The notes under the pieces are model-generated. The model worked only from the letters and a program-made list of their open reading frames with translations, was not told the DNA's origin and did not search any database. Positions 12,604 to 24,899 of a stretch of DNA of 27,019 nucleotides are shown here, one piece after another; position 1 is the first letter of the stretch, and each line of letters starts with the position of its first letter. Origin of the DNA: a virus. A program made the position numbers and the translations under genes. The stretch covers positions 16,972 through 43,990 of IMG/VR virus record IMGVR_UViG_3300037963_005302; one strand, given 5' to 3'.

Positions 12604-12612
12604 GATTTACAC
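12604..12612 (-). promoter_or_regulatory. Putative late promoter motif of the tail-tip operon
   Basis: On the minus strand this reads GTGTAAATC and lies 14 bases before the ATG of L. The same GTGTAA-type element occurs before five other transcription units in this window at 14 or 16 bases. It resembles the T4 late promoter element TATAAATA. It overlaps the -35 box of the opposite-strand promoter. Confidence 0.6.
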
Positions 12613-12634
12613 TTTTATTATTATATAATATAAT
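12606..12634 (+). promoter_or_regulatory. Sigma70-like promoter, predicted leaderless, for 12641 gene
   Basis: TTTACA at 12606-12611, a 17-base spacer and TATAAT at 12629-12634. The seventh base after the -10 box is the G of the GTG start codon at 12641, so the transcript should be leaderless. No Shine-Dalgarno sequence is present. The -35 box lies inside the reverse complement of the late motif of the L operon. Confidence 0.65.
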
Positions 12635-12640
12635 AAAGAT

Positions 12641-13366
12641 GTGAAAATTACACAGTTAAAACAGGACGACTTTAAGCTTTGGCCTTATTTCATAGATTTC
12701 TTTATCAAGTCTCAACCATATGATTTAACAAAGTTGCGAAGCCCTCATTTAAAAAGAGAAAAAATTAGAAGGACGTTTGAGTTTTACATGAAAAATTGCA
12801 TCACTTACATGGCTGAGAATGATTCAAAAATTGCGGCGGCTGTTTTTTTAGACCCATCGAAATCCTACTTCGATGTAAGTTTCCTTTTTGGAATTAGAGA
12901 AAACTTCTCAAGCTCTACCTTGATAACCGCACTTCACGATATTTTCGATAAAGCCATAACAACATACAATAAAAACTACATTAAAAGCGAAATAAGGAGA
13001 AAATACAAAGTAGAGACTTATAAGAAATGGATTGAAAGATACGACAAAACAGCCATAATATTTAATGACCCACCAAATACTGTAGTTTGGTGTAAAAGTA
13101 ACCGTATGAATGCTAAATTTAAAGTAGTAGGCACTAATAATACTACTGAGCACCTGATAGAGAAAAAAGCTTCTCTGGGAAAGGTCTACCCTGATAAAAA
13201 CAATCCACCTTCTAGACTCAGAGAACTTATCTTTGAAGATGGAATTTACATTTTAGATGAAAAAAAGGTTGACTTTCTTGCGGATCGTGTTTTAATTCAC
13301 GGGTTCCTGTCCGATAATCAAAACAACGTGGGCAGGGTAGCACTTGAATTCATACCTCAAAAATGA
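12641..13366 (+). CDS. Hypothetical protein, possible GNAT-type acetyltransferase
   Basis: A 241-residue cytoplasmic protein without signal peptide or membrane segment. It starts at GTG; the overlapping ATG two bases earlier is followed at once by TGA. The first ~150 residues show an order of secondary structure compatible with the GNAT fold: a strand (YFDVSFLFGI) after an earlier strand (KIAAAVFLDP), a long helix, then a YKKWIERYDKTAIIF helix-to-strand segment like the end of GNAT domains. I see no clear acetyl-CoA loop (Q/RxxGxG/A), so the assignment is weak. The C-terminal ~80 residues are unassigned. It heads a group with overlapping junctions leading to the spanin-like genes. Confidence 0.55.
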   Translation: MKITQLKQDDFKLWPYFIDFFIKSQPYDLTKLRSPHLKREKIRRTFEFYMKNCITYMAENDSKIAAAVFLDPSKSYFDVSFLFGIRENFSSSTLITALHDIFDKAITTYNKNYIKSEIRRKYKVETYKKWIERYDKTAIIFNDPPNTVVWCKSNRMNAKFKVVGTNNTTEHLIEKKASLGKVYPDKNNPPSRLRELIFEDGIYILDEKKVDFLADRVLIHGFLSDNQNNVGRVALEFIPQK

Positions 13367-13563
13367 AAAGTAAAGCCACTCTTTACAGAGTATACAATCG
13401 CAAAGGAGAATACCATCATGCCTATAGCCCCTCTTTAGAAGGAGCGTTGGTTTGGGCCATCGACTGCGCTAAAACAGTCAACGGTTCAGTCAGAGAGGTC
13501 TTTGAAGATGGGACCGAAAAAGAAGTTTTCACCTTCAAAAAGGAGGCAAAATGTTCGCGCTAA
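13363..13563 (+). CDS. Small hypothetical protein
   Basis: A 66-residue soluble protein of unknown function. Its ATG overlaps the stop of the previous gene (ATGA), and its last bases overlap the next start at 13551, so the three genes are probably translated from one mRNA. The composition is mixed, with aromatic residues near the N-terminus (YRVYNRKGEYHHAYSP) and a basic C-terminus (FKKEAKCSR). No known domain recognised. Confidence 0.6.
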   Translation: MKSKATLYRVYNRKGEYHHAYSPSLEGALVWAIDCAKTVNGSVREVFEDGTEKEVFTFKKEAKCSR

Positions 13564-13805
13564 TTAAATCTATTTTCAAATCTTTAGAACTTTTTCTTAG
13601 TTTAAAAAATAAAAAATTTTATTATGACTTATACTGGCAGCACAAAGAGACAGAGCAAGAGCTTATTTACCAAATTGAAGAGCTTAGGGAGAGTGGGGAT
13701 AGCAACGATGCTGATCGGGCTGACCTCCTGCGTAAGCAACTCAAATATGAGCGTGAACAATTTGAACATATATCAGCCTTCTACTCTAAGGCTCAAGAAG
13801 AATAG
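13551..13805 (+). CDS. Probable i-spanin (Rz-like), coiled-coil membrane-associated
   Basis: An 84-residue protein with a strong Shine-Dalgarno sequence (AGGAGG at 13541-13546). The N-terminus (FALIKSIFKSLELFLSL) is a hydrophobic or amphipathic helix, less hydrophobic than a usual signal anchor because of two lysines. The rest (residues 25-84) is charged and strongly helical, as expected for a periplasmic coiled coil. The +1 frame inside it carries a lipoprotein gene, the arrangement known for Rz/Rz1 spanins, which link inner and outer membranes in the last step of Gram-negative lysis. The pairing is the main argument; the weak membrane anchor is the main doubt. An alternative is another small coiled-coil protein. 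Confidence 0.6.
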   Translation: MFALIKSIFKSLELFLSLKNKKFYYDLYWQHKETEQELIYQIEELRESGDSNDADRADLLRKQLKYEREQFEHISAFYSKAQEE

Positions 13806-13908
13806 TCCTATTCAAACAATAGATGGAGTCTATACCCCTCAAACTGATGAGGTGTGGCACTCTGATGCTCGCTATAGGAGACTCGAAAGAGAAATTTATT
13901 CCAAATAA
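13624..13908 (+). CDS. Probable o-spanin lipoprotein (Rz1-like), overlapping out of frame
   Basis: A 94-residue protein whose first two thirds lie in a different frame inside the i-spanin gene, while the last 34 residues extend beyond it. A lysine-rich n-region (KRQSKSLFTKLKSLGR), hydrophobic core (VGIATMLIGL) and a good lipobox (LTSC, Cys36) predict cleavage and lipidation by the Lsp/Lgt pathway. The mature ~59 residues include polar stretches and a TPQTDEVWHSDARYRRLE tail. As an o-spanin it would sit in the outer membrane and pair with the i-spanin to fuse membranes at lysis. ATG at 13624 is the first start; an internal GTG or ATG closer to the hydrophobic core is possible. Confidence 0.62.
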   Translation: MTYTGSTKRQSKSLFTKLKSLGRVGIATMLIGLTSCVSNSNMSVNNLNIYQPSTLRLKKNSPIQTIDGVYTPQTDEVWHSDARYRRLEREIYSK

Positions 13909-13957
13909 CGAAAAAATTTAATTGACCCGTTGCCTCGCGTAGACCTGGAGGATTACT

Positions 13958-14365
13958 ATGAGAATTTCATGGGAACAATACGCTTTAAATATAGCTAAAA
14001 CTGCCTCTGAACGAAGCGAAGACCCCTTCATGAAGGTTGGCGCATGCGCTTTAAATAAAGATAATATGGTCTTAGCTGTTGGCTATAATGGTTTAGCTAC
14101 AGGAAAAAAAGTAGATAAATACTTTTGGGCGGTAAGGCGAGATAGGAGACCTTACATGATTCATGCAGAAGCTAATTGTTTAAGCTTGGTGAAGAGGGGA
14201 GAGGTGGAATTATTAGCTGTTACTCTTTTGCCGTGCGCTTCATGTGCTACTTTAATAGCATCTTATAATATCCCTAAAGTTGTTTATGGCCAAGAATATG
14301 AACGAGACATGAAGGCTTTAGACATTTTTGACTTTTATAACATAGAATGTGTAAAATTGAGTTGA
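13958..14365 (+). CDS. Deoxycytidylate deaminase-like zinc deaminase
   Basis: A 135-residue member of the cytidine/deoxycytidylate deaminase superfamily. The zinc site is complete: H69-A-E71 (IHAEANC) and P92-C93-x-x-C96 (LPCASC). The N-terminal SEDPFMKVGACAL and VGYNG segments are typical of dCMP deaminases of the ComE/Dcd type. The likely reaction is dCMP to dUMP, feeding dTTP synthesis for phage DNA. It has a good Shine-Dalgarno sequence (GGAGG at 13947-13951). The allosteric dCTP/dTTP site of larger relatives cannot be judged. It may act on dCMP or on another cytosine nucleotide. Confidence 0.8.
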   Translation: MRISWEQYALNIAKTASERSEDPFMKVGACALNKDNMVLAVGYNGLATGKKVDKYFWAVRRDRRPYMIHAEANCLSLVKRGEVELLAVTLLPCASCATLIASYNIPKVVYGQEYERDMKALDIFDFYNIECVKLS

Positions 14366-14391
14366 CAAAGATGAAAAAACTGTAATAATAG
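14362..14391 (+). promoter_or_regulatory. Sigma70-like promoter for the outer-membrane protein gene
   Basis: A perfect -35 (TTGACA, 14362-14367) and an A/T-rich -10 region; TAATAG at 14386-14391 gives an 18-base spacer. The seventh base after it is the A of the ATG at 14398, predicting a leaderless mRNA. A -10 variant TAATAA at 14383 would have a short 15-base spacer. A weak GTGTAAAAT element at 14349-14357 lies inside the preceding gene. Confidence 0.6.
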
Positions 14392-14397
14392 ACAAAT

Positions 14398-15090
14398 ATG
14401 AAGAAATTAATTCTTACAACACTACTGATGGGCGCTGCTATGGTTGGCGCAGTTAAAGCCACCACTCTCGCAGATGTCTCTGTAGAAGGTGGTGTTTCAT
14501 ACAGCACTCTTTCCACTAGTGGAGGAGTCGGAATCAGAGATGACGCATTTAGCTATTCTCTCACACTCTCTGCTCCAGTAAAAGCGGGAGGGACTGCTTC
14601 AGTTGGCATTGACATTTTCGATGTTGACGGAGGCTATGAACAAGACATTTCCTTGTCTTATTCCAGAGGTATTAGTCTTTTAGGTCAAGACCTTGAAGCT
14701 GACTTCTACTTCCAAAGGATTGATTCTTCCTTTGGTGGTTGGGATGAAGTCGGAGCAAGCCTTACTTACAGTCACGCCCTTGCAGATCTTACAGCTACTC
14801 TATGGCATGAAGTAGGCGGTGGTTCTGGCGGTGCATATGGAGTAGAGTTTATTCTTTCTCGCGATATTGACACTCCAGTAGACGGTTTAGTATTGACACC
14901 TTTTGCTGGACTTAATCTTGCTGATGAATATACAGCTTTTGAAGCTGGCTTAGCGGCCTCTTACAAAATCACTGAAGCAGCTTCTGTTTTTGTAAAAGGA
15001 GGTTATAACGATAACGATCTTGATTCTTCTAGCGCATACAGCTTAGATAATGAGTGGTCGATTGGAGCAGGAGTTTCATACAAATTCTAA
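14398..15090 (+). CDS. Phage-encoded outer-membrane beta-barrel (porin-like) protein
   Basis: A 230-residue protein with a Sec signal peptide (KK n-region, LILTTLLMGAAMVGA core, cleavage after AVKA near residue 21). The mature part is rich in alternating hydrophobic/polar strands and Gly/Ser turns and ends in YKF, the C-terminal Phe signature recognised by the BAM machinery. Eight to ten strands are plausible (SYSLTLSAPV, DLEADFYFQRID, VGASLTYSHAL, SIGAGVSYKF). It is monocistronic, between its own promoter and a strong terminator. By analogy with lambda Lom and other phage outer-membrane proteins it may alter the infected cell surface, for instance by blocking receptors or changing permeability; this role is inference. 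Confidence 0.82.
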   Translation: MKKLILTTLLMGAAMVGAVKATTLADVSVEGGVSYSTLSTSGGVGIRDDAFSYSLTLSAPVKAGGTASVGIDIFDVDGGYEQDISLSYSRGISLLGQDLEADFYFQRIDSSFGGWDEVGASLTYSHALADLTATLWHEVGGGSGGAYGVEFILSRDIDTPVDGLVLTPFAGLNLADEYTAFEAGLAASYKITEAASVFVKGGYNDNDLDSSSAYSLDNEWSIGAGVSYKF

Positions 15091-15120
15091 TAACTCTACG
15101 TTTTTAAAAAAGTAAAAGAA

Positions 15121-15147
15121 AAGCCTCCCGCAAGGGGGGCTTTTTTT
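15121..15147 (+). terminator. Rho-independent terminator after the outer-membrane protein gene
   Basis: Stem AAGCCTCCC / GGGGGGCTT (one G-T wobble) closed by a GCAA tetraloop and followed by a run of T. It separates the beta-barrel gene from the lysis cassette. Confidence 0.92.
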
Positions 15148-15154
15148 GTATCCC

Positions 15155-15163
15155 GTGTAAATA
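15155..15163 (+). promoter_or_regulatory. Putative late promoter motif of the lysis cassette
   Basis: GTGTAAATA directly after the terminator, 16 bases before the holin ATG. There is no Shine-Dalgarno sequence between motif and ATG. It is one of six such elements in the window, three of them exact GTGTAAATA. Confidence 0.6.
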
Positions 15164-15170
15164 AATAAAC

Positions 15171-15488
15171 ATGGAACCTGAAAAATCTATTTTAAAAGAG
15201 TTTTTAAACGGGGGTTGGCTTGTGCCATTGGTTGGCGCAGCAGCAATGTTTGCAAGGCTATTATCGGGGAATAGTGGTCTTTCATTAAAACAACAATTTA
15301 AAAGAGTGCTTACGGCGGCTATAGCCGCTGGAATTGCTTGGTTTGTATTAGAACAAACAGACGTATCCTCACTTACAAAAGCGATCACTTATGGTATCAT
15401 TGGTGTAATTAGCCCAGAAGTAATTAGCGGTATCGTGCGATTAGGGGAAAAATTCGCCAAGAACCCAGAAAAATTTATTAAAAAATGA
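15171..15488 (+). CDS. Holin, three-transmembrane (LydA-like)
   Basis: A 105-residue protein with three hydrophobic segments (about 15-33, GWLVPLVGAAAMFARLL; 44-62, VLTAAIAAGIAWFVL; 69-88, LTKAITYGIIGVISPEVI) and a short basic C-terminus (KNPEKFIKK), a layout typical of class I / LydA-type holins. It would form inner-membrane lesions that release the endolysin. It is the first gene of a cassette in which each stop overlaps the next start (ATGA), and it has its own GTGTAAATA motif. The family is recognised from topology and context. Confidence 0.75.
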   Translation: MEPEKSILKEFLNGGWLVPLVGAAAMFARLLSGNSGLSLKQQFKRVLTAAIAAGIAWFVLEQTDVSSLTKAITYGIIGVISPEVISGIVRLGEKFAKNPEKFIKK

Positions 15489-16090
15489 GACCTAAGTTTA
15501 TTGTTTATTGCCTAGCGGCAATTTGTTTAACGTTTGGCTGGAGAGGCGCTACTCTCACAGAGGATATAAATAAGACCCTAGCAGAAAACGCTCGTCAATC
15601 AGAGTCGTCCATCATGGAGATTGGAATGTGCTTTGATTGGTATGGTGTAATTATCGTAGACTCTGTTATAAAAACTTCGCATGGTATTATATCTCCCAGT
15701 GAAATGGTTGAGGTTCTAGAGGAGGAAAGAGCAAATAAAGATGAATATCTAGAGGGCTACAAGAAAGATATTACTCCCGATGAGACCGAGTATGCAGATT
15801 TTGTTTTTGAGCAAGAGGAGAAAATAAACTCTTATGTTAGTCAATTGATTGAGTGGGGAAATAAAGAAGAAGTTGATAGCATTAAAGCTTCTATTCCTCA
15901 CATGTATACGATGACCGATCCAACTATCGAGGCTATCAATAACATTATGGATACTAAGATGTATTATAATGAAAGAAAGTCTGAGGAACTACATGAAAGA
16001 ATACATAATTTTAGAGACTTTATGATTCTGGCTATTGTTTTATCGGTTGTAATGTCAATATGTGCGTCATTTAGTAGGAGGTGTAGATGA
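15485..16090 (+). CDS. Two-TM helical protein between holin and endolysin, possible antiholin
   Basis: A 201-residue protein: N-terminal transmembrane or signal-anchor segment (residues 4-22, FIVYCLAAICLTFGW), a ~150-residue acidic all-helical region that should face the periplasm, and a second transmembrane segment (about 176-196, MILAIVLSVVMSICASF) ending in SRRCR. This TM-helical bundle-TM layout resembles the four-helix-bundle sensor domain of chemoreceptors without a signalling domain. It overlaps the holin stop (ATGA) and the endolysin start (ATGA). Its position suggests a lysis regulator or antiholin that senses the periplasm; that is inference. No sequence family is firmly recognised. 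Confidence 0.6.
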   Translation: MRPKFIVYCLAAICLTFGWRGATLTEDINKTLAENARQSESSIMEIGMCFDWYGVIIVDSVIKTSHGIISPSEMVEVLEEERANKDEYLEGYKKDITPDETEYADFVFEQEEKINSYVSQLIEWGNKEEVDSIKASIPHMYTMTDPTIEAINNIMDTKMYYNERKSEELHERIHNFRDFMILAIVLSVVMSICASFSRRCR

Positions 16091-16707
16091 ATTTTAAAGG
16101 AAAAAAAGAGGTAGTTAAGGCAGTCCAAAAGATTTTGGGAGTTTCTGCGGATGGTGCAGATGGTCCCGTTACATGGAATGCTATCTTAGCCAAACTCTCC
16201 ACAAAGGAAACTACTGCGCCCAAAGGAACCATTCCTGAAAAAATGGTTTCATTAGCAAGGGAAGAAATAGGGGTATCTGAAGTGGATGGTAGTAATTGTG
16301 GGCCAAGGGTAGATGAATACAAAGCGGCTACATGGTTAGATGCTGATAAGGGATGGCCGTGGTGTGCTGCTTTTATTTGTTGGTTAGTCAGGGAAGCCAT
16401 AGAGGGAGAGGATGTGTCCTTTAAACGTCCCAGAACCGCAGGAGCGTGGGACTTTGAAAACTGGGCTAAACAAGAATCAAATAGAGGAATAGAATTGCGT
16501 AAACCTACAAACGAAGATATTAAAGCTGGCGATATTGTTGTGTTTACTTTTTCTCATATTGGAATCGCGGTAAAAGACGTAGATTCAAGCGGTTATGTAG
16601 TCACCATTGAAGGTAATACTAATGGTGCTGGCAGTAGAGAGGGTGGTTCTGTCCTAGAAAAAAAACGTCACGTTTCAAAAATTCGCAGTAGAATAAGAAT
16701 TCTGTAG
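16087..16707 (+). CDS. Endolysin: N-terminal PG-binding-like region plus CHAP amidase/peptidase
   Basis: A 206-residue protein. Residues 5-35 (VVKAVQKILGVSADGADGPV) look like a peptidoglycan_binding_1 repeat. Residues ~48-206 form a CHAP-type cysteine peptidase/amidase with catalytic Cys93 in WPWCAAF, His157 in SHIGIAV and a polar third residue in IEGNTN (Glu175 or Asn177). There is no signal peptide, so it depends on the holin for export. An AGGAGG Shine-Dalgarno sequence lies at 16076-16081, and the start overlaps the stop of the two-TM gene. It cleaves peptidoglycan at the end of infection. Confidence 0.88.
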   Translation: MNFKGKKEVVKAVQKILGVSADGADGPVTWNAILAKLSTKETTAPKGTIPEKMVSLAREEIGVSEVDGSNCGPRVDEYKAATWLDADKGWPWCAAFICWLVREAIEGEDVSFKRPRTAGAWDFENWAKQESNRGIELRKPTNEDIKAGDIVVFTFSHIGIAVKDVDSSGYVVTIEGNTNGAGSREGGSVLEKKRHVSKIRSRIRIL

Positions 16708-16726
16708 ATTAACTTTACCTTCCCAC

Positions 16727-16732
16727 TATAAT
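16727..16732 (+). promoter_or_regulatory. TATAAT -10 box, predicted leaderless start at 16739
   Basis: A perfect TATAAT whose seventh following base is the A of the ATG at 16739. There is no good -35 at 16-18 bases, so strength is uncertain. No Shine-Dalgarno sequence can fit between a start site here and the ATG. Confidence 0.5.
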
Positions 16733-16738
16733 AGGGAA

Positions 16739-17029
16739 ATGGAGAAAGTTAACATTAAGGTTAGTCGTCACGACATCTTTAATTATGTTGTTGGTCATTC
16801 TGTCTTTGACCCAATTGAAAAATGCATTGACCCCACAAGGTATGAAGTCTTGGACGGTTTTATTTACGATTCTAAAACGAAGCAACAGATAACACAAAGT
16901 CACGAATACCAGAGGTTTTGTTGGGAGGTAAGCAAACTTAAGCAGTTTACCGAAAAAATGAATAGGCGCGAAATTGAAAGCGTCTGCGAAGAAATCGAGG
17001 AGATCGCTCCAACCTACGTTTTACTTTAA
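16739..17029 (+). CDS. Hypothetical protein
   Basis: A 96-residue acidic soluble protein without recognised domain. The segment YEVLDGFIYDSKTKQQI and the charged helical C-terminus (NRREIESVCEEIEEI) suggest a small mixed fold. It starts a plus-strand unit that continues through the basic protein to the pyrophosphatase. Its predicted promoter places the transcription start at the ATG. Confidence 0.6.
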   Translation: MEKVNIKVSRHDIFNYVVGHSVFDPIEKCIDPTRYEVLDGFIYDSKTKQQITQSHEYQRFCWEVSKLKQFTEKMNRREIESVCEEIEEIAPTYVLL

Positions 17030-17030
17030 T

Positions 17031-17171
17031 ATGGCTAAAAAAACAACATCAGTATATTCCCTTAAGAAACAAAAGAGGAATAAAGGGGTTCACGCTAAAA
17101 GCAAAAGCTCTAATAATAAACAAAGTAAGCTCTATAAGAAAAAATATAGAGGGCAAGGTAAGAAGAGATGA
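17031..17171 (+). CDS. Small, highly basic protein
   Basis: A 46-residue protein with about 40 percent Lys/Arg (GVHAKSKSSNNKQSKLYKKK, then RGQGKKR). Short basic proteins with the KGVHAKSK...YKKKYRGQG pattern recur in marine phages; their function is unknown, and nucleic-acid binding is likely. The frame is open from 16974, but the ATG at 17031, two bases after the preceding stop, is the sensible start. Its stop overlaps the pyrophosphatase start (ATGA), so the two are coupled. Confidence 0.65.
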   Translation: MAKKTTSVYSLKKQKRNKGVHAKSKSSNNKQSKLYKKKYRGQGKKR

Positions 17172-17767
17172 ACTTAGTAAATGACATACCGATTACCACA
17201 GATGATTACGATCATATAAATTGTATTGTCGAGATTCCTAAGGGAACCAATACAAAATACGAGTATGATGAGAAATTAAATATATTTAAATTAGATAGAT
17301 GTTTAGTTTCTTCCCTAAAATATCCGATTAATTATGGTTTTGTCCCACAGACTATTGCATTGGATGATGATCCACTTGATGTTTTAGTTTTTAATCATGA
17401 CCCTATTGATAGGGGTAGTTTAGTTTCGTGTAGGGTTTTGGGGGTATTGGGTTTTGTTGATGGTGGGCAAATAGACAATAAAATTATTGCCGTTCCACAC
17501 TGGTCACCCATAGAAAAATATAAAACAGTTCATGATATTGAGTCTTCGCACCTTAAGATATATAGGCAATTTTTCAAAATATACAAGATAGACAGAGATT
17601 CTGATACCAAAGTGGGCGATTGGAGGTCTAGAAATGTTGCCCTCCAAATAACAAAAGATTCTTATGAAAGGTGGAAAAAAGCCAATAAAGAAAGATTTCA
17701 AGAAGAGTGGGCTGACAGAAATTTTTGGCAAAAAATGAGAAACTCAAGCCACGTTCAGCCCGATTAG
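17168..17767 (+). CDS. ppa: Family I soluble inorganic pyrophosphatase
   Basis: A 199-residue protein that hydrolyses pyrophosphate to phosphate. The family I signature D-x-D-P-x-D is present (DDDPLDVLV). All thirteen active-site residues of the E. coli enzyme can be aligned: E22, K30, E32, R44, Y56, D66, D68, D71, D98, D103, K105, Y139 and K140, so it should be active. Length is close to the bacterial enzymes (about 175 residues), with a C-terminal extension of ~25 residues (RFQEEWADRNFWQKM). It overlaps the small basic gene by four bases. In a phage it could pull DNA synthesis forward by removing pyrophosphate, or act in nucleotide supply; the physiological role is inference. Confidence 0.92.
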   Translation: MNLVNDIPITTDDYDHINCIVEIPKGTNTKYEYDEKLNIFKLDRCLVSSLKYPINYGFVPQTIALDDDPLDVLVFNHDPIDRGSLVSCRVLGVLGFVDGGQIDNKIIAVPHWSPIEKYKTVHDIESSHLKIYRQFFKIYKIDRDSDTKVGDWRSRNVALQITKDSYERWKKANKERFQEEWADRNFWQKMRNSSHVQPD

Positions 17768-17776
17768 GTGTAAATA
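17768..17776 (+). promoter_or_regulatory. Putative late promoter motif for 17782 gene
   Basis: GTGTAAATA immediately after the pyrophosphatase stop, 14 bases before ATG 17782. An AAGGA sequence lies only two bases before the ATG, too close for normal use. It is one of three exact copies of the motif. Confidence 0.55.
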
Positions 17777-17781
17777 AGGAC

Positions 17782-17964
17782 ATGGATACTATTCTACAAC
17801 TAGTTCAGGATAACCCTTGGTTTGGTGTAGTTGCGTCTGTTATCGCTCTTGCGTCAGCAGTTGCGGCTGCAACCCCTACCCCTAAAGAGGGGACTTTTCT
17901 GTCCAAATTATATAAATTAATTGATTGGGCGGCTTTAAATATTGGGAAAGCCAAGCAGAAGTAA
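17782..17964 (+). CDS. Small one-TM protein, possible second holin
   Basis: A 60-residue protein with one hydrophobic segment (about residues 12-30, WFGVVASVIALASAVAA), a PTPKEGT linker and a C-terminal amphipathic helix rich in lysine (LYKLIDWAALNIGKAKQK). Proteins with this ATPTPKEG pattern are frequent in marine phages and are candidates for small holins or holin partners. It is monocistronic, between a GTGTAAATA motif and a terminator. The frame extends back to 17725, but that part lies inside the pyrophosphatase gene upstream of the motif, so ATG 17782 is chosen. Confidence 0.68.
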   Translation: MDTILQLVQDNPWFGVVASVIALASAVAAATPTPKEGTFLSKLYKLIDWAALNIGKAKQK

Positions 17965-17999
17965 GTCTACAGATTTGTCTTAGGACTCAAGCTCTAGAC

Positions 18000-18025
18000 A
18001 CCTCCATCCTTGGATGGGGGTTTTT
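18000..18025 (+). terminator. Rho-independent terminator after the 17782 gene
   Basis: Stem ACCTCCATC / GATGGGGGT with one G-T wobble and loop CTTG, followed by TTTTT. It lies 36 bases after the stop codon and insulates the next promoter. Confidence 0.88.
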
Positions 18026-18039
18026 GCTCTATATTATGC

Positions 18040-18067
18040 TTGAACAAATTCGTTGTTGAGGTAATAT
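18040..18067 (+). promoter_or_regulatory. Sigma70-like promoter for the 18074 gene
   Basis: TTGAAC (18040-18045), 16-base spacer and TAATAT (18062-18067). The seventh base after the -10 box is the A of ATG 18074, predicting a leaderless transcript. Confidence 0.5.
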
Positions 18068-18073
18068 ATTCTT

Positions 18074-18607
18074 ATGATTTCAAATAAGGCCAAAGGCTTA
18101 TCGGGTTCCACCCATGTAGCCCACACCCAAAAACTAATAGACGAATCTACAGAGAGATATCACCACTCCTGTCTCTCTGCTGGCCTAACCATAAAAAAGA
18201 CTGGTAAGGTTCAAGATATAGGTCATGTTGATTTCGTGGTAAATGGAGAAACCGTCGATTTAAAAGGATTAAAAAACTCAACGCGGGAGGGTAAAATATT
18301 ATTGGAGTTTCTAAATGTGAATGGAAAGACAGGGTGGTGTAACGAAAATGGCACTCCCCTCTGGATAGCTTTTGATTTTGGGGCTTTCTTTCTTCATGCA
18401 AAAAATGTAGATTTATATAACCTAGCGAAAGAAAAATGCAATCTACGAGAAACTGTTAGTAGGGTCGATTCATGCCTTTATAAAGGATATAGACGCAAAG
18501 GAAGAAAAGATATGATGTCTATGGTTTTACTTAAAGATGTTTTAGATAACTGCGAGCACTGGTTCTTACCCTATGCCAAGTATCATATTCCCTTAGAGCA
18601 GGTTTAA
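18074..18607 (+). CDS. PD-(D/E)XK nuclease-like protein
   Basis: A 177-residue protein with a nuclease-like core: HVDFVVNGETVDLKGLK contains D53 and D62-x-K64, the D-(x)n-(D/E)-x-K arrangement of the PD-(D/E)XK fold, preceded by a helix carrying Glu/His (TQKLIDESTERYHHSC). The following strands (LLEFLNVN, PLWIAFDFGAFFL) fit the same fold. The role could be restriction of host DNA, resection or packaging help; the target cannot be read. It ends head-to-head with the minus-strand 18604 gene, and the two share four bases. Confidence 0.6.
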   Translation: MISNKAKGLSGSTHVAHTQKLIDESTERYHHSCLSAGLTIKKTGKVQDIGHVDFVVNGETVDLKGLKNSTREGKILLEFLNVNGKTGWCNENGTPLWIAFDFGAFFLHAKNVDLYNLAKEKCNLRETVSRVDSCLYKGYRRKGRKDMMSMVLLKDVLDNCEHWFLPYAKYHIPLEQV

Positions 18608-18888
18608 GGATAATTTCTGAAGTCCCCTGTTCCTTGATAGCTAAAACCTGCGTCATAAGGTTCTATCAATAATCCCGTGGTTACTGGTGCGTTTCCTGTC
18701 CAGCTTGTATGAAGCTCATCAACTTTGCGATTATACTCTTTTATTAAGTGCTGTTCAAACCACCCACCGTTTAGAGATAAACCACCACTTAGTGTATACA
18801 TTCCTGTTACCTCACTCCTAAAGGTGGCCCAGTCCCCCGACCCCGATGAGTGACTGTAGTGAATTTCTCCTAGTAAATCTAACGGCAT
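18604..18888 (-). CDS. Hypothetical protein on the opposite strand, late-type expression
   Basis: A 94-residue protein of unknown function, rich in Gly, Ser and aromatic residues (HYSHSSGSGDWATFRSEVTG, GGLSLNGGW, YQGTGDFRNYP), a composition closer to structural or tail proteins than to enzymes. It is a single minus-strand gene inside a plus-strand region and is preceded by a GTGTAACTT element 16 bases before the ATG plus an AGAGG sequence, so it is probably expressed late with the tail genes. Its 3' end overlaps that of the 18074 gene. Confidence 0.62.
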   Translation of the reverse strand: MPLDLLGEIHYSHSSGSGDWATFRSEVTGMYTLSGGLSLNGGWFEQHLIKEYNRKVDELHTSWTGNAPVTTGLLIEPYDAGFSYQGTGDFRNYP

Positions 18889-18895
18889 ACCTCTT

Positions 18896-18904
18896 AAGTT
18901 ACAC
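18896..18904 (-). promoter_or_regulatory. Putative late promoter motif (minus strand)
   Basis: Minus strand reads GTGTAACTT, 16 bases before the ATG at 18888. It is the most divergent of the six copies, sharing GTGTAA and the upstream A-run (AAAAA) with the L copy. It stands back to back with the plus-strand promoter at 18932. Confidence 0.5.
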
Positions 18905-18931
18905 TTTTTTCAAGAATCTGGAAAAAATCTC

Positions 18932-18959: not shown

Positions 18960-18965
18960 GACAAC

Positions 18966-19088
18966 GTGTTAACATGGATATTAATTATTACCGCCTGGAT
19001 AGCGTTCATGCTTTTACTGTGCCGCTTCTTAGGGATTAACACCGACCAAGAACGTGAACTCCTAGAGAAAGAAAAAGAAAAGAAATGA
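18966..19088 (+). CDS. Tiny one-TM protein (GTG start)
   Basis: A 40-residue protein that starts at the predicted transcription start site. Residues 2-23 (LTWILIITAWIAFMLLLCRF) form a transmembrane helix; the C-terminal half is very charged (QERELLEKEKEKK). Its stop overlaps the ATG of the next gene (ATGA), which supports translation of this frame. A competing 20-codon ATG frame at 18974 lacks such coupling. Function unknown. Confidence 0.6.
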   Translation: MLTWILIITAWIAFMLLLCRFLGINTDQERELLEKEKEKK

Positions 19089-19324: not shown

Positions 19325-19354
19325 AATGTGTCGAAAAAATAAAAATAAATCGAC

Positions 19355-19435
19355 ATGTCTAGGTTTGAGTCTATTATTCACCTGTTGCTTTTCGTGTTTG
19401 CTTTTTTTATGTTAATGATTTTCCTTTCTAAGTAA
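19355..19435 (+). CDS. Tiny 26-residue membrane protein
   Basis: A short frame, almost entirely one transmembrane helix (residues 6-24, SIIHLLLFVFAFFMLMIFL), flanked by polar ends (SRFE, SK). Its stop overlaps the next start (TAATG), the same junction type found elsewhere in this operon, which supports that it is real. No family recognised. Confidence 0.5.
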   Translation: MSRFESIIHLLLFVFAFFMLMIFLSK

Positions 19436-19704
19436 TGGCAAACTACACAAAAATACTCCATATCTCAGTATCAATCATAGCCGCATTAACAGTGGGGGTT
19501 TTGTTATCCCTTTTTATTGGTGTGGTCTCTTTGGTTGATTCATTTTTTAAATTTCCTGTGCAAGTTTATCGCAATCTTCAACAGCAAGAAAAACTGCGTA
19601 GACTTTCACAAGTTTTCACCCCTACTCCAGATCAGGAAAATATTTGGGATAAACATATCCGTAGAATGGAAGAGAAGAATAAACACAATAGTAACCATGA
19701 ATAA
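19435..19704 (+). CDS. One-TM hypothetical protein
   Basis: An 89-residue protein with an N-terminal hydrophobic segment (residues 8-35, LHISVSIIAALTVGVLLSLFIGVV) and a charged cytoplasmic-type tail (QQQEKLRRLSQVF, DKHIRRMEEKNK). It overlaps the upstream tiny gene (TAATG) and the downstream 19697 gene by eight bases. Function unknown; part of a series of small membrane proteins. Confidence 0.65.
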   Translation: MANYTKILHISVSIIAALTVGVLLSLFIGVVSLVDSFFKFPVQVYRNLQQQEKLRRLSQVFTPTPDQENIWDKHIRRMEEKNKHNSNHE

Positions 19705-20206
19705 AAAAGATTTAATTGAAGCTTTGGGGGCAGGAGTTGCCTTCGGAGTAATAGTTTATTGTTTCATGATGGTCGCCATCCACTTCATCGACATAGAGTC
19801 GGAGACTGAAATGTTGATGCCCGATTTTAATGACCTAGATTACAAGGTTCTGCCACAAGAGGGGGGCGCACCAGTTAAGCCGATGCCCCTACCGATCCAG
19901 CAAGAGGGGTTTGATCTCGCCATGGTGACGTTCAAATATGAGATCAGAATACAAAATAGCTATGACGATGAGATGTTGGAGAAGACTGAGACTCTTGATC
20001 AAGCAATAGAATATATTTTAGAGTATTCTAGATTTCATGATGACCTATATGTATATGATTTAGAAACAAAAGAATTAATGATTGACTCTGCGACTGTTAA
20101 TGAGACAATGAGATCTCTACAGACAAAAGAGCAACAGTTGATTGAAGCGGCCCAATACCCCCAAACATTTTCTGATGTTGAAATTTTTAACTTACTAGTA
20201 GACTAA
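19697..20206 (+). CDS. One-TM hypothetical protein with acidic helical domain
   Basis: A 169-residue protein with one N-terminal membrane segment (about residues 10-30, GAGVAFGVIVYCFMMVAIHF), a proline-rich linker (PVKPMPLPIQQ) and an acidic helical C-terminal domain (about 65-169). The frame is open from 19517, but that part lies inside the 19435 gene; ATG 19697 gives a normal eight-base overlap and puts the membrane segment at the N-terminus. Its stop overlaps the next start (TAATG). Function unknown. Confidence 0.68.
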   Translation: MNKKDLIEALGAGVAFGVIVYCFMMVAIHFIDIESETEMLMPDFNDLDYKVLPQEGGAPVKPMPLPIQQEGFDLAMVTFKYEIRIQNSYDDEMLEKTETLDQAIEYILEYSRFHDDLYVYDLETKELMIDSATVNETMRSLQTKEQQLIEAAQYPQTFSDVEIFNLLVD

Positions 20207-20541
20207 TGAATAAAAAAACACTAATCATTCTATCCTGTTGTTTTATTTTAACCCTCTTCTGTGTTAGCCTAATACTGGCAAATAACACGGAGACTAAGGT
20301 TGATAAAATAACAGTCACTTACGAGAATAAAAAACAAAAAGAATTCCCAGTGACAGTAACTCTCACCAAATATCAACTGTGCAAAATGTTAGAAACACTT
20401 GAGGAAGAGAGAGGTTATGGTCGTCCTGCTGACCCACAAGACAGCTTCACCTACACTTCAATTGCCAAAGGCAATCAACACTCCGAACAATACAGCATCT
20501 CCTCGACTCATTTAGCTAAAAAACCACTATCAGATGATTGA
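20206..20541 (+). CDS. One-TM or secreted hypothetical protein
   Basis: A 111-residue protein whose N-terminus (MNKKTLIILSCCFILTLFCV) is a signal peptide or signal anchor, with a possible cleavage after LILA near residue 25. The rest is polar, with a TVTYENKKQKEFPVTVTLTK beta-like segment. It is coupled to both neighbours: TAATG before, and an eight-base overlap with the next start at 20534. No domain recognised. Confidence 0.65.
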   Translation: MNKKTLIILSCCFILTLFCVSLILANNTETKVDKITVTYENKKQKEFPVTVTLTKYQLCKMLETLEEERGYGRPADPQDSFTYTSIAKGNQHSEQYSISSTHLAKKPLSDD

Positions 20542-21076
20542 GGTTTCGCTCTCAGACAAACAGCTAAAATGGTGTAGGGACCATGCCCAAAAAATAGTGG
20601 ATTATTACGGCGGTAATAACACGCTAGGGTCTGGTTCCTACAACCACAATAAAATAAGTAGTAATTTAGTTGGCGTTAAGTCTGAGGTTGCAACTACAGT
20701 GTGGCTCAAAAGACACATTGATAATAGGGGGATCACCCCCAACTTCGTTGATTTTAAAAATAAAAAATTAAAGGGCGATTTAGATATAGTAGGTAGGTGC
20801 ATAGAAATAAAAGGTCTACGACCTCACCAGTGGGATGATTTCAAGAGATGCATCCCCCCAAAACAATTGAAGTCTTATGTCAGAGATGACGCTATTGTTG
20901 TTTGGACAACGACAGCAGGAGACACAAAAGATTTTAAAGTAATACTACAGGGATGGAACTATGCTAAAGACGTAGATGATAACGGGGTCTATCGCAAAAC
21001 AATTTGCGATAATATTTGGTTAAAGGAAGACTCCCAAATGAGAGACATGGAAAGTTTAATAAAAGAATTAAAATGA
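20534..21076 (+). CDS. PD-(D/E)XK nuclease-like protein
   Basis: A 180-residue protein with a restriction-endonuclease-like core: E51 in VKSEVATTVWL, D82/D84 in GDLDIVGRC and E91-I-K93 (CIEIKG), followed by a strand DDAIVVWTT and an ILQGWNYAKDV tail found in several type II restriction-like families. It is likely a DNA endonuclease; substrate unknown. It overlaps the next gene by four bases (ATGA). The resemblance to the 18074 gene is only at fold-motif level. Confidence 0.68.
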   Translation: MIEVSLSDKQLKWCRDHAQKIVDYYGGNNTLGSGSYNHNKISSNLVGVKSEVATTVWLKRHIDNRGITPNFVDFKNKKLKGDLDIVGRCIEIKGLRPHQWDDFKRCIPPKQLKSYVRDDAIVVWTTTAGDTKDFKVILQGWNYAKDVDDNGVYRKTICDNIWLKEDSQMRDMESLIKELK

Positions 21077-21507
21077 ATACCAAAGAACTGCTTAAACTTC
21101 ACGATGATACCTGCAAAGCTTGCAGGGTAATCATGCAAAAGAAAAACAGCGATTACACTGGTGGCAAGGGTGCTACCGATCCCTTCGCTAATTTTAATGC
21201 ATCCAAGATACTGGACATCCACCCTGTGCAGGGTTTGCTTCTCCGTGTAATCGACAAAATAAAAAGAATCTATTCGTTCACCAATGACAGTGAATTATCT
21301 GTCCCAAATGAAACTGTAGAAGATGCTTGTGATGATATAGTGAACTATGCTATATTAGCTAAAGCAATGCTTTTAGAAGAGAGAGGTTCGACAAAACGCT
21401 TGACGGAAGAACAGGAACTTCAAGGAGAAAAACGCATTGATATCATTGGACGTAATGGCAATGATGGGTTACATTACTCCCAGATCGAAGAAGAGAACGC
21501 TAAATAA
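21073..21507 (+). CDS. Nmad1/DUF1599-like nucleotide-modification-associated protein
   Basis: A 144-residue protein with the pattern KNSDYTGGKGATDPFANF, VQGLLLRVIDKIKRI and EDACDDIVNYAILAKAM, which I recognise as DUF1599, also called nucleotide modification associated domain 1. The helical, acidic-residue-rich core resembles MazG/dUTPase-type nucleotide hydrolases. A role in handling modified or unwanted nucleotides during phage DNA synthesis is suggested by the family name; the reaction is not known to me. The ATG at 21073 (ATGA overlap with the previous gene) is preferred over the open frame from 21016. Confidence 0.75.
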   Translation: MNTKELLKLHDDTCKACRVIMQKKNSDYTGGKGATDPFANFNASKILDIHPVQGLLLRVIDKIKRIYSFTNDSELSVPNETVEDACDDIVNYAILAKAMLLEERGSTKRLTEEQELQGEKRIDIIGRNGNDGLHYSQIEEENAK

Positions 21508-21509
21508 AC

Positions 21510-21974
21510 ATGAATATATTTGCAGTAGACACTGACCCTAAGACCGCCGCACAACAGTTGTGCGATAAGCACGTTGTTAAAATGATTTTAGAATCAGCGC
21601 AGATGCTCTGCTCTGTGTTCCCGAATGGTGACGCACCATACAGGAGAGCATTCTACAATCACCCTTGCACTAAGTGGGCTAGAGAGTCAGCAGAGAACTA
21701 CGAGTGGTTGCTAGACCATGCTTATGCCATGTGTCAAGAGTATACCAGACGCTATGGTAAGGTTCATAAGTCTCTAGATGCTATCGGGTGGTGCGGATCT
21801 AATTACCACAAACTAAATATACCACGCAAAGGGTTGACTAAATTCGCACAAGCCATGCCAGAACAATACAAAAACGATTGTTCTGTTACTGCTTACAGGT
21901 CATACTATAACGGAGAGAAAGCTTACTTTGCTAAGTGGAGTAAGAGAGAGACACCATCTTGGTTCCATGCTTAA
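21510..21974 (+). CDS. Conserved phage protein of unknown function
   Basis: A 154-residue protein with a strongly patterned sequence: MNIFAVDTDP, LCDKHVVKMILESAQML, HPCTKWARES, NYEWLLDHAYAMCQEY, FAQAMPEQYK and AYRSYYNGEKAYFAKW. The same pattern recurs in many marine tailed phages and I know no proven function. Conserved Asp, His, Cys and Arg residues suggest an enzyme. It sits between the Nmad1-like gene and a short conserved unknown gene with which it overlaps by eight bases. Confidence 0.75.
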   Translation: MNIFAVDTDPKTAAQQLCDKHVVKMILESAQMLCSVFPNGDAPYRRAFYNHPCTKWARESAENYEWLLDHAYAMCQEYTRRYGKVHKSLDAIGWCGSNYHKLNIPRKGLTKFAQAMPEQYKNDCSVTAYRSYYNGEKAYFAKWSKRETPSWFHA

Positions 21975-22185
21975 AGACGGAGCTTTAATACTACACGGCT
22001 TAGAGGATGCTGTAGCGGGGGTATCGGACGGCGGGTTGTTAATTTATGACTACAACAAGGTGGTTAAGGTTTTTGAAAAGCAGGGAATGACTGTGGAGGA
22101 GGCCGTTGAGTGGATTGATTATAACGTAATGGGTGTGCAATGCAATGGAGAGGGATTTATTATGATGTATGAACATTTAAATTAA
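21967..22185 (+). CDS. Small conserved phage hypothetical protein
   Basis: A 72-residue acidic protein (LKDGALILHGLEDAVAGVSD, EEAVEWIDYNVMG). Proteins with the GLEDAxxGVS...Y-(D/N)-x(3)-V...EEAxEWxxYN pattern are common in phages, function unknown. The frame opens at 21928, but ATG 21967 gives a short overlap with the preceding gene and starts the conserved part. Confidence 0.68.
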   Translation: MLKDGALILHGLEDAVAGVSDGGLLIYDYNKVVKVFEKQGMTVEEAVEWIDYNVMGVQCNGEGFIMMYEHLN

Positions 22186-22191
22186 TTTTAA

Positions 22192-22623
22192 ATGAAAGAA
22201 GACCAGCTAAATCTATTTAATATCAATGATTATGATCTGGTTTTTCATTTAGACCCCGATGATCCCAATACCAAAACCTGCAAAATCTGTGGAACAACAA
22301 AACCTTTAGAGCAATTTCCAAAACATTGTCATTACGCTGACAATTTAGATGTTAGGTGTAGAACTTGTATAAAAGAACACACGGAGTTAAGAAATTATTT
22401 AAAAAAAATATCTCCACCTCCTCCAGAACGGTGCGAGTGCTGTGGAGAAAAGTCAGACAAAAGCCTTCACTTAGATCACTGCCACACTACAAAAGAGTTT
22501 CGTGGCTGGCTTTGTGAGTCATGTAATACTGGACTTGGCAAGCTAGGAGACAACCTTAAGGGAGTTCAGAAAGCAGTATCTTATCTAAAAAGAGTCGAGA
22601 GCAAACAAAACGATGCAGGATGA
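22192..22623 (+). CDS. Recombination endonuclease VII-like HNH nuclease
   Basis: A 143-residue protein. The C-terminal half has the endonuclease VII (T4 gp49) fold signature: zinc cysteines C81/C84 and C108/C111, catalytic D95-H96 (LHLDHCHTT) and N112 (CESCNTGLG). The N-terminal half carries a second zinc-ribbon-like set (C30/C33, C56/C59). T4 endonuclease VII resolves branched DNA during packaging, while many stand-alone phage relatives act as free-standing homing nucleases; the sequence cannot tell which applies. It overlaps the sulfotransferase start by eleven bases. Confidence 0.83.
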   Translation: MKEDQLNLFNINDYDLVFHLDPDDPNTKTCKICGTTKPLEQFPKHCHYADNLDVRCRTCIKEHTELRNYLKKISPPPPERCECCGEKSDKSLHLDHCHTTKEFRGWLCESCNTGLGKLGDNLKGVQKAVSYLKRVESKQNDAG

Positions 22624-23296
22624 TTTTTTAAATTTTTTTAAAGCCGCCATAAAGGTGAGGCAAGATGATAGTCTTTTGAACAAAGATCACTTGTTGTTTT
22701 TGCGGATACCTAAAAACGCTAGCTCATCCATTATGCAGGTTCTAGGCACCCGAAATATAGTAAAAAGGTATGAGTCGGAGTTAACGGAGAAGTTAGACCA
22801 TAACATCTATAAGAAAGTCTTTGATGTAACTCATGCTCGCCCAGAAGAACTTCGGTCTGTCATAAATCCTCTTGAGCTTGATTGTTTTTCTTTTGCTGTT
22901 GTAAGAAATCCTTGGGATAGGGTTGTATCTATGTATCACTTTGGCAAAAAACTAGGTTTAGCCTACTTGTTTGGCTTAAAAAACGATTTATCTTTTAGTG
23001 GTTTCTGTAAAATTCTGAAAGATAGAGAGGGAGACCCTTTCTTTTTGCCCGTTTTCAAGCAGACAGAGTGGACAAATACTTCTTTGGGGTTAAACTGCAT
23101 ATTAAAATTCGAAAATCTCAGGGAAGACTACAAGTCTATGGTAGAAAAAAACAATATCTCTTGTGTTTCTTCTGATCTGCCTCACACCAATAAGAGTAAG
23201 CACTCGCATTATAAGGATTACTTTACTATTGAGGATAAAAAGTTAATTAAATCTATCTTTGAAGAAGACTGCGACACTTTTAGATATAGTTTTTAA
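22613..23296 (+). CDS. PAPS-dependent carbohydrate sulfotransferase-like protein
   Basis: A 227-residue protein of the sulfotransferase superfamily (Sulfotransfer_2 type). The 5'-phosphosulfate-binding loop is RIPKNASSS (K34, S37-S39) and the 3'-phosphate-binding motif is RNPWDRVVSMY (R98, S106). The end of the domain has LKFENLREDY, which recurs in this family. It has no signal peptide or membrane anchor, so it would act in the cytoplasm, moving sulfate from PAPS to a sugar or another acceptor. Possible targets are host surface glycans, to change receptors, or phage structures. It is the last gene of the long operon, before a GTGTAAATA element. Confidence 0.83.
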   Translation: MQDDFLNFFKAAIKVRQDDSLLNKDHLLFLRIPKNASSSIMQVLGTRNIVKRYESELTEKLDHNIYKKVFDVTHARPEELRSVINPLELDCFSFAVVRNPWDRVVSMYHFGKKLGLAYLFGLKNDLSFSGFCKILKDREGDPFFLPVFKQTEWTNTSLGLNCILKFENLREDYKSMVEKNNISCVSSDLPHTNKSKHSHYKDYFTIEDKKLIKSIFEEDCDTFRYSF

Positions 23297-23316
23297 CTAC
23301 ATTACTCCCCACACAA

Positions 23317-23325
23317 GTGTAAATA
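23317..23325 (+). promoter_or_regulatory. Putative late promoter motif for the secreted protein gene
   Basis: GTGTAAATA, 16 bases before the GTG start at 23333. It is the third exact copy. An inverted ACAC/GTGT pair and flanking CCCCA/TGGGG surround it. Confidence 0.58.
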
Positions 23326-23332
23326 GTATGGG

Positions 23333-24463
23333 GTGACTAGGAAAAATACATATTTTGCGGGTTTAATTTTATTTTTATTGTCTGCGTTTGCGGTAAACGC
23401 AGAAAGAGCTTACTCTCAAACGAGTTACTCTACTTCTGATTATGTTGGTTTCCACGTTGAGACTATAAAAGCTAATAGCTTTACTCACGTTGCATATAAT
23501 GTTAGTAGAACTCCAAATGGTCGTCACAATCGCAGCATAAACGAGGCATTTGGACCTAATAATGAGATAGGTTTGGTTGCACATCCTTACTGGAGGGATG
23601 CTGACATAGTGTGGGTGAAGTATGGTGATGAGTGGATTCAGTTCTATTATAACGATCAAGACCTAATCAACGATCCCGAGGGACTTTCAGTAGGATGGAA
23701 GGGGGTTGGTTGGGGAGACACCGATCTTGGTGACTATTACATACCTGAAACCAGTGGCTTTTGGATTGAATCAAAGAGATCAGAGGATTATGTTGTTGCT
23801 TTTAGTGGATATGTCAGAAGGTTACCGATGGTATACAGGGTAACTAGAGGTTTTAATTCTTTAAATAGGGGCTATCCTATTCCGATTACTCTAGACCAGT
23901 CACTAATTCACAAATCCTCTGGCTTTAAAACAGGTATCAATGGAGATATTGTGTGGCTCCAAAGAGAAGACACAGGCAAATACGATCAATATTACTATTC
24001 TAATAAAAAAGAATTTCCATTTCTGCCTGATGGGTGGCGCAAGATAGGGTCAGAGATGGATGATGCGGGTGGTGATTACATTCCTTCTGCGTTTGCAATT
24101 CAAGTCAAGCACAGAGGAGGCAGAGTAACCCTGCATCCACCTGTTGATTTTGTTGGCAAAAAAACATTAACAAGAGTTGGTATACAACCACCGCCTGAGC
24201 CTCCATACATAACCCCTTTCATAGAGGTGTGGCCTAACGATTTACAGCCCTACTTCTACGCTTACTGGTATACCAATCAAAAAGTTAAATACACCACTGA
24301 GGTTTACGAACCTTGGAGCGGTTGGTTTACAATAAATGAAAGAGTTCCCCCGCATCCAAAGCCTAGCACATTTGATTTTGCTAGAATATTATCTTTAAGA
24401 TGGGGAGTTGCTAGAATTATTTCAGAATGGTCTAATCCCATCGCACCACCCGACGAAAAATAG
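23333..24463 (+). CDS. Secreted protein with duplicated TIGR02597-like domain
   Basis: A 376-residue protein starting at GTG. Residues 1-23 are a Sec signal peptide (RKN n-region, YFAGLILFLLSAFAV core, cleavage after VNA). Two related domains follow: about 39-155 (DIVWVKYGDEWIQFYYN, GWKGVGWGD, GDYYIPETSGFWIESK, FSGYV) and about 165-275 (DIVWLQREDTGKYDQYYYS, GWRKIGSEMDDAGGDYIPSAF). They resemble TIGR02597, a secreted-protein family known mainly from Verrucomicrobiota. The last ~90 residues (WPNDLQPYFYAYW, SLRWGVARIISEW) may be an fnIII-like beta domain after a proline-rich linker. Expression is probably late. Function unknown; envelope or cell-surface binding is possible. Confidence 0.72.
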   Translation: MTRKNTYFAGLILFLLSAFAVNAERAYSQTSYSTSDYVGFHVETIKANSFTHVAYNVSRTPNGRHNRSINEAFGPNNEIGLVAHPYWRDADIVWVKYGDEWIQFYYNDQDLINDPEGLSVGWKGVGWGDTDLGDYYIPETSGFWIESKRSEDYVVAFSGYVRRLPMVYRVTRGFNSLNRGYPIPITLDQSLIHKSSGFKTGINGDIVWLQREDTGKYDQYYYSNKKEFPFLPDGWRKIGSEMDDAGGDYIPSAFAIQVKHRGGRVTLHPPVDFVGKKTLTRVGIQPPPEPPYITPFIEVWPNDLQPYFYAYWYTNQKVKYTTEVYEPWSGWFTINERVPPHPKPSTFDFARILSLRWGVARIISEWSNPIAPPDEK

Positions 24464-24545
24464 CCCAGATCGACTGCGATTTTGCCAAATAAGCGCGTAA
24501 AACCCCCAGATCGAATGATTTTTTTCCAAATAAGTGCGCGTAGAT
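24464..24545. repeat. Two 41-bp imperfect tandem direct repeats between convergent genes
   Basis: Unit 1 (24464-24504) and unit 2 (24505-24545) share CCCAGATCGA, then TG, then TTTT, then CCAAATAAG at identical spacing, and a GCG-rich end (GCGCGTA / GTGCGCGTA). The middle is diverged. The repeat fills the space between the convergent 23333 and 24556 genes. There is no hairpin with a T-run, so it is not a typical terminator. Confidence 0.8.
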
Positions 24546-24555
24546 AGCCGAACAT

Positions 24556-24885
24556 TTAAATTGATTCTTTTATTTTCGCTAATAACTTAATTTTATTTAT
24601 TAGTTCTGACACGTTAATCACAGAAATCTTTTGTGTCGTTACGGTGAGTGGGTAATTCATCTCCGTATCTAATCTTATTCCTTCTTCTTTTATCTCTGGG
24701 TAGATAATCTCTGACACATAATCGTATAAACCTTTTCGTTTTAATATAGAATAATAGTAATCTATTTGTTCTTTCTGTGCCTCCACAATAACATCCATGC
24801 TGTAATCGAATCTCATCACGTTGGTGAGATACCTAAAATATAATCCTTCGTTTGTAGTGAGTGCAGAAACCACTATGAGGGTCAT
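24556..24885 (-). CDS. Hypothetical protein on the opposite strand
   Basis: A 109-residue soluble helical/mixed protein without recognised domain (LIVVSALTTNEG, MDVIVEAQKEQIDYYYSILK, GIRLDTEMNYPL). The frame is open from 24927, but the added residues (HFNDFFFFCVIKY) come from a T-rich stretch and the GTGTAATTA element lies between the two ATGs, so ATG 24885, 14 bases after the motif, is chosen. It is a single minus-strand gene within plus-strand DNA, like the 18604 gene. Function unknown. Confidence 0.62.
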   Translation of the reverse strand: MTLIVVSALTTNEGLYFRYLTNVMRFDYSMDVIVEAQKEQIDYYYSILKRKGLYDYVSEIIYPEIKEEGIRLDTEMNYPLTVTTQKISVINVSELINKIKLLAKIKESI

Positions 24886-24890
24886 ATATT

Positions 24891-24899
24891 TAATTACAC
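24891..24899 (-). promoter_or_regulatory. Putative late promoter motif (minus strand)
   Basis: Minus strand GTGTAATTA, 14 bases before ATG 24885, the same distance as the L and 17782 copies. A T-rich stretch precedes it on that strand. A plus-strand sigma70-like promoter stands back to back with it. Confidence 0.52.

Follow-up and report, generated by a model that had tools for sequence, protein, structure and literature searches.

A GTGTAA element just ahead of start codons as the probable core of a promoter for a phage-encoded ECF-like sigma factor

How does a phage direct transcription to tail and lysis genes that lie on both strands and share the same short element, GTGTAA, just ahead of their start codons? 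The question is raised by a stretch of 27,019 nucleotides (hereafter the window), bases 16972-43990 of the 43,990-base virus record IMGVR_UViG_3300037963_005302, which is apparently a fragment. On its minus strand the window has the lambda-like tail genes J, I, K and L; a lysis cluster, a clamp loader subunit and numerous small genes are also present, and the left part of the record (L009) encodes a DnaE-type polymerase and a Clp-type ATPase. The original prediction placed the element at six positions in the window, with its first G 14 or 16 bases before the start codon, and all six sites were found again as written. These predicted late-type promoter elements are listed below, together with gene L and the terminator next to the second of them.

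10442..12598, minus strand: tail protein L, whose gene heads the L-K-I-J operon (phrog_18 minor tail protein, E 3.5e-51)
12604..12612, minus strand: element GTGTAAATC before tail gene L (10442-12598, minus), ATG at 12598, spacing 14
15124..15146, plus strand: intrinsic terminator directly upstream of the predicted holin promoter
15155..15163, plus strand: element GTGTAAATA before a putative holin (15171-15488), ATG at 15171, spacing 16
17768..17776, plus strand: element GTGTAAATA before a 60-amino-acid membrane-type gene (17782-17964), ATG at 17782, spacing 14
18896..18904, minus strand: element GTGTAACTT before a 94-amino-acid gene (18604-18888, minus), ATG at 18888, spacing 16
23317..23325, plus strand: element GTGTAAATA before a putative secreted protein (23333-24463), GTG at 23333, spacing 16
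24891..24899, minus strand: element GTGTAATTA before a gene at 24556-24885 (minus), ATG at 24885, spacing 14

We consider it probable that GTGTAA(W)(W), W being A or T, is the promoter core recognised by a phage-encoded sigma factor similar to the extracytoplasmic function (ECF) class, which would reprogramme the host RNA polymerase. The window has nine matches to GTGTAAHTH (H being A, C or T); dinucleotide shuffles of it yield 2.5 +/- 1.4, and 0 of 100 reach nine. For six of the nine, a start codon at +14 to +16 opens a frame of at least 50 codons; the matches at 12653 (-), 15403 (+) and 15645 (+) lie inside coding sequence and were rejected as sites. The whole 44-kb record holds eight GTGTAA sites with the start codon of a frame of at least 50 codons at +14 to +16, and over the 90 permutations of these letters (GTGTAA included) the mean is 0.56 such sites, the next best permutation reaching five. 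A seventh site lies beyond the window, at position 2276 of the record, before the Clp-type ATPase; the apparent spacing of 12 for this gene vanishes on inspection, as the second ATG, which is probably the real start, gives 15.

The same signal is found when relatives are considered. Related loci were found with L as the query (70 loci), and further ones came from a terminase scan (80) and a Clp scan (42); 17 related contigs of up to 104 kb were joined from stretches, and a set of 18 contigs was analysed. Within this set no other 6-mer is as enriched as GTGTAA in the interval 13-17 bases ahead of ATG starts (96 occurrences, 2.72 expected). In a motif-blind scan of upstream 6-mers by offset, the top rank goes to GTGTAA at -16 and -14, and a separate analysis of a more distant clade also puts it first (10 against 0.33). 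The element occurs in 30 of 439 orthologue groups, 15 of which have it in at least two members and usually in all, and in aligned orthologous upstreams it stands as an invariant island between flanks that diverge. That chance or an A/T-rich composition produced this pattern is hardly conceivable: the genome is AT-rich, which is all that speaks for such an origin, and the shuffles, the 6-mer scans, the orthologues and the distant clade refute it.

Conservation is strongest before L, where GTGTAA stands exactly 14 bases ahead of the start codon in every related locus listed with its upstream, and in 31/31 of the unique orthologous upstreams kept by the ortholog scan. The L proteins of phages with the element are 37-61% identical; that of G001, for example, shares 54% identity with the L of the window and 52% with that of G015. 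For the remaining window sites, the element is present in orthologous upstreams of the holin (32/32), the membrane-type gene at 17782 (22/24), the gene starting at 18888 (18/19, spacing 14-17), the putative secreted protein (2/3, the other at spacing 14) and the gene at 24556-24885 (6/7). Elsewhere in these genomes it precedes the 281-amino-acid head gene of the structural operon (47/47), PhoH (59/60), a 161-amino-acid gene (27/27), a 155-amino-acid gene (8/8), the ribonucleotide reductase beta subunit (7/7) and the Clp-type ATPase (30/35), and it lies upstream of six control genes in 1 of 166 relatives. One clade has GCGTAA/GTATAA ahead of Clp. The motif is thus far commoner before genes than elsewhere and is kept in relatives, the outcome that the original prediction had proposed to look for. 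Its pattern, GTGTAA(A/T/C)T(A/C/T), needs to be broadened: the sites stand, but the real core is GTGTAA followed mostly by A/T. Similarly, a spacing of exactly 14 or 16 describes this window, and in relatives the spacing is mainly 14 to 19.

We next consider what kind of signal this is. The element looks like a promoter: it faces into transcription units, it follows a terminator at the holin, an arrangement also seen in relatives, and it is missing before the operon-internal genes tested (J 0/49, endolysin 0/33). In a logo built from 30 groups, A/T-rich sequence flanks GTGTAA and no -35 is visible; the sites were picked for GTGTAA, so that the flanks alone are informative, and we took as noise a faint enrichment in A some 36 to 39 bases ahead of the inferred start. 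At the six window sites the best matches to TTGACA are just 2-4 of 6, which agrees with the earlier statement that no usual -35 box accompanies them. In 22 gene groups whose start codon sits elsewhere, the base at +14 from the first G is a purine in 95% (G 0.59). A purine that keeps a constant distance to a -10-like element has the look of a start site, so that transcription likely begins at this position, with leaders of 0 nucleotides at spacing 14 to about 4 at spacing 18. For L the transcription start would be the A of the ATG. The purine would also, in line with the original prediction, place the start site at or next to the start codon and leave almost no leader.

The fixed closeness to start codons could also be expected of a signal for translation initiation, without any promoter, if these phages begin translation by a route other than Shine-Dalgarno pairing. 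In all gene classes of the 18 contigs, operon-internal genes included, Shine-Dalgarno motifs occur at about the background level, which is in keeping with such a signal, and the host may be one that does without these motifs; the same result led us to reject Shine-Dalgarno sequences as a hidden explanation of the element. However, spacing varies between orthologues (14, 16, 17) while the purine stays at +14 from the motif and not from the start codon, and both the absence of the element before operon-internal genes and its position behind a terminator are at odds with a role in translation, which we regard as very improbable.

If the element is a promoter, a factor that reads it should be sought, and the original prediction expected a small sigma-like gene outside the window. 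Such a gene, ECF-like in its product, exists in relatives, where it follows the PhoH gene and closely precedes the terminase gene. A Pfam region 2 search found it in 6 of 10 large relatives, a sequence search found it in 7/7 long contigs carrying the terminase module, and 306 relatives of the protein were confirmed in an IMG/VR scan. The product has about 228 amino acids, with an almost invariant sigma-2 region. Both family models match weakly: PF04542 in 21/21 members (best E 2.8e-5), and TIGR02937 (sigma70-ECF) in 21/21, with a best E of 1.7e-8 and an alignment spanning residues 37-192. The AlphaFold model is moderate (mean predicted local distance difference test score, pLDDT, 71.5) and its whole-chain template modelling scores are low; its two-domain fold aligns with ECF sigmas, and its Foldseek neighbours in the PDB are mostly sigma factors, chiefly ECF, with probabilities up to 1.00. 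The nearest folds are SigH, SigL, SigW, AlgU and phage sigma24 homologues, and the viral neighbours include many phage sigma factors. The species of the window is bracketed by relatives that have this predicted sigma gene. The gene sits among genes headed by putative GTGTAA promoters, two operon-head genes carrying the element. No gene for a cellular-type RNA polymerase beta subunit (PF00562) was found in 13 contigs, in a search whose positive control matched; a T7-like RNA polymerase (PF00940) gave no match, but its control was likewise unmatched. We infer that the phage sigma reads GTGTAA, as had been proposed for a phage-encoded or modified sigma factor, the pairing being one of association.

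Directly before the sigma gene lies a zinc-ribbon-like gene (L081:15097-15447 (-), and related upstreams) with a conserved GAAAA ... TATAAATATATAGT-ATG element, which is possibly the host-type promoter of the sigma gene. This second element can also be read the other way, as the target of the phage sigma, in which case GTGTAA would be a promoter for an alternative sigma factor of the host and the phage sigma would serve other promoters. The association between sigma and promoter, and the lack of a sigma gene in the record of the window, leave room for that arrangement. We consider it rather unlikely, since the element is invariant although L is only 37-61% identical, as fits a factor that travels with the phage, and since the phage sigma, with its nearly constant sigma-2 region, is found in every long contig with the structural module.

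A further alternative is that a phage activator or anti-sigma redirects the sigma70 holoenzyme of the host, for which GTGTAA would serve as a degenerate -10. The element does occupy the -10 position, and Thermus phage P23-45 offers a parallel, its middle and late promoters being of the extended -10 class, the late ones likewise less dependent on a -35, and read by the host sigma-A holoenzyme with phage gp39 (PMC7403470), where we propose a phage sigma. But for sigma70 it is the A in position two of the -10 that is central, and an invariant G stands there in these phages; TGTAAW also fits TATAAT poorly. Moreover, other genes in these genomes are preceded by clear TTGACA/TATAAT promoters, and a phage sigma gene is present. 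A redirected sigma70 is in our estimation quite improbable.

Several observations weigh against a phage sigma acting on late promoters. The sigma gene is absent from the window's own record, a fragment, and is inferred from relatives. For sigma member 1 the Pfam and NCBIfam scores are under the curated cut-offs, and the protein has a region-4-like domain, normally a -35 contact, yet no -35 is conserved. The motif had been expected before capsid and other tail genes, and it does head structural units beyond the window, but the major capsid candidate and the terminase have no copy of their own. The class is presumed to be late from its gene content: tail, lysis and structural genes fit the label of late targets given in the original prediction, whereas ribonucleotide reductase, PhoH and the Clp ATPase, which belong to the same putative regulon, are not classic late genes.

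Two further arrangements of the element were noted. Before the tape measure gene, at a distance of a few tens of bases, two tandem GTGTAA copies lie 12 bases apart (L080 18252-18272 (-) and L085 8554-8574 (-)); the pair is conserved in these two contigs and may give a longer leader. In L081 4372-4821 (-) and its relatives the start codon follows a variant, AGTGTATATAATATTGT-ATG, which seems to combine the late element with a TATAAT box.

A second promoter class with sigma70-like boxes is present in the same genomes. In the 18 contigs TATAAT peaks 11-12 bases and TTGACA 35-36 bases before start codons, and paired TTGACA-N16/17-TATAAT boxes stand before genes other than those with GTGTAA. Two predicted promoters of this host-type class, which contrasts with the GTGTAA class, lie in the window.

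12606..12634, plus strand: sigma70-like promoter TTTACA-N17-TATAAT, facing the divergent gene 12641-13366 (GTG start), with the -10 12 bases before the start codon
18932..18959, plus strand: sigma70-like promoter TTGACG-N16-TATAAT, with the -10 12 bases before the GTG at 18966, in 6/6 orthologues

Where a -10-like signal lies some 12 bases ahead of a start codon, the gene has been read as leaderless (PMC3160421). Because of this reading, the distances of both boxes and the near-background Shine-Dalgarno matches, messages with hardly any leader may be usual in these phages, the GTGTAA class included. The TATAAT class thus has the same -10-like geometry as leaderless (TA-led) bacterial genes (PMC3160421), from which these phages differ in having a second, phage-specific class with GTGTAA in that geometry. 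The -35 of the promoter at 12606..12634 overlaps the late element of L on the other strand, and a back-to-back layout of late element and sigma70-like -35 is seen at 12599-12640 in the window and, at another locus in relatives, at 20301-20347 of G001. Such an overlap could act as an early/late switch. We put forward tentatively, and with more doubt than confidence, a wider scheme in which this widespread uncultured lineage would rely on leaderless or near-leaderless messages for almost all of the infection, its two sigma classes acting at equal distances from start codons, host sigma70 early and the ECF-like phage sigma late on the -10-only GTGTAA; at divergent pairs, where the late element overlaps the opposing early -35, loading of the phage sigma would itself silence the early gene.

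Among known systems, the late promoters of T4 are the closest in layout. They carry TATAAATA at -13 to -6, read by gp55 (PMC1524935), and as in the phages studied here they have a single -10-like element of about 8 bases, no -35 and the same register (here TGTAAWW from -13, by the inferred start); a phage-encoded sigma and the control of tail and lysis genes are also alike. The differences are an invariant G for A at -12 and an additional invariant G at -14 (GTGTAAWW), an ECF-like sigma with a region-4-like domain, and leaders of 0-4 nucleotides. The sigma did not match phrog_234, and an hhalign comparison of A1 with seven gp55 sequences gave a probability of 0.3, so it was rejected as a gp55 homologue. 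Late transcription in T4 also depends on a sliding clamp and on the co-activator gp33; here a clamp loader subunit is encoded at 25206-26126 of the window, and a DnaN-type sliding clamp (PF00712) was not found in 13 contig records, other clamp families not being tested. The likeness to T4 drawn in the original prediction therefore holds for layout, register and one changed base, to which one added G must be joined, and does not extend to a detectable kinship of the sigma with gp55: the element would work like a T4 late promoter and is not a member of the T4 system. With the sigma70-ECF sigmas (TIGR02937), including RpoE-like proteins annotated in uncultured Caudovirales phages, the phage sigma probably has the two-domain sigma-2/sigma-4 layout in common, and it differs from them by a Cys-containing inter-domain segment of variable length. 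Typical ECF promoters have a -35, whereas the targets here are without a conserved one; the vegetative sigma70 arrangement (TTGACA and TATAAT 16-18 apart) is likewise not seen at the six window sites or in the 30-group logo. A literature search for GTGTAA as a phage promoter found no report.

In the sequence of events that we propose, host sigma70 would act on promoters of the TTGACA-N16/17-TATAAT type, which drive the first genes and probably also the gene for the phage sigma. The phage sigma would then open promoters with a -10-type element only, GTGTAA at -14 to -9 from the start, at tail, lysis, packaging/structural and some metabolic genes, and would also activate the two genes heading its own operon, as a feedback. 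Transcription would start at the purine 14 bases after the first G, so that messages would open with the start codon itself or about 1-4 bases ahead of it. GTGTAA at the operon heads, taken with the differing element just before the sigma gene, suggests a host-started, self-reinforcing switch.

The phage group is known here from metagenomes only. It is large, uncultured and probably marine, the habitat being read from sample sets and not from a tool result. No close relative of the terminase, the sigma or the capsid candidate was found in 50,697 annotated phage records, and queries of the annotated phage collection with J, DnaE, terminase, sigma and the capsid candidate returned distant relatives or none, with no isolate and no host. 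A 14.9-kb phage contig (L313, CAKZOO010000020.1) with a terminase 78% identical is binned in a metagenome-assembled genome of Flavobacteriaceae, a weak host hint. We did not accept Flavobacteriaceae as the host because the link consists of a bin of this kind and because it conflicts with the early-type TTGACA/TATAAT promoters, which differ from the Bacteroidota promoter type. Other features of these genomes include very long, internally repetitive genes of tail fibre type (window 2-4714; L009 13930-17500 (-)) and a region poor in convincing genes that separates the structural module from that of the small genes (L081/L082, G001 about 37550-43390). Rfam matched nothing in the window or L009.

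From sequence alone, the analysis yields a testable regulatory programme for this group of phages: a sigma factor with a likely promoter and some 15-20 target units. It suggests that the solution of the T4 style, in which a phage sigma reads a single -10-like element, does not require a sigma detectably related to gp55. The group would also be a clean system for leaderless translation in phage infection, and the element would serve as a promoter tag by which late genes of unknown function may be recognised and the stage of infection read from ocean metatranscriptomes.

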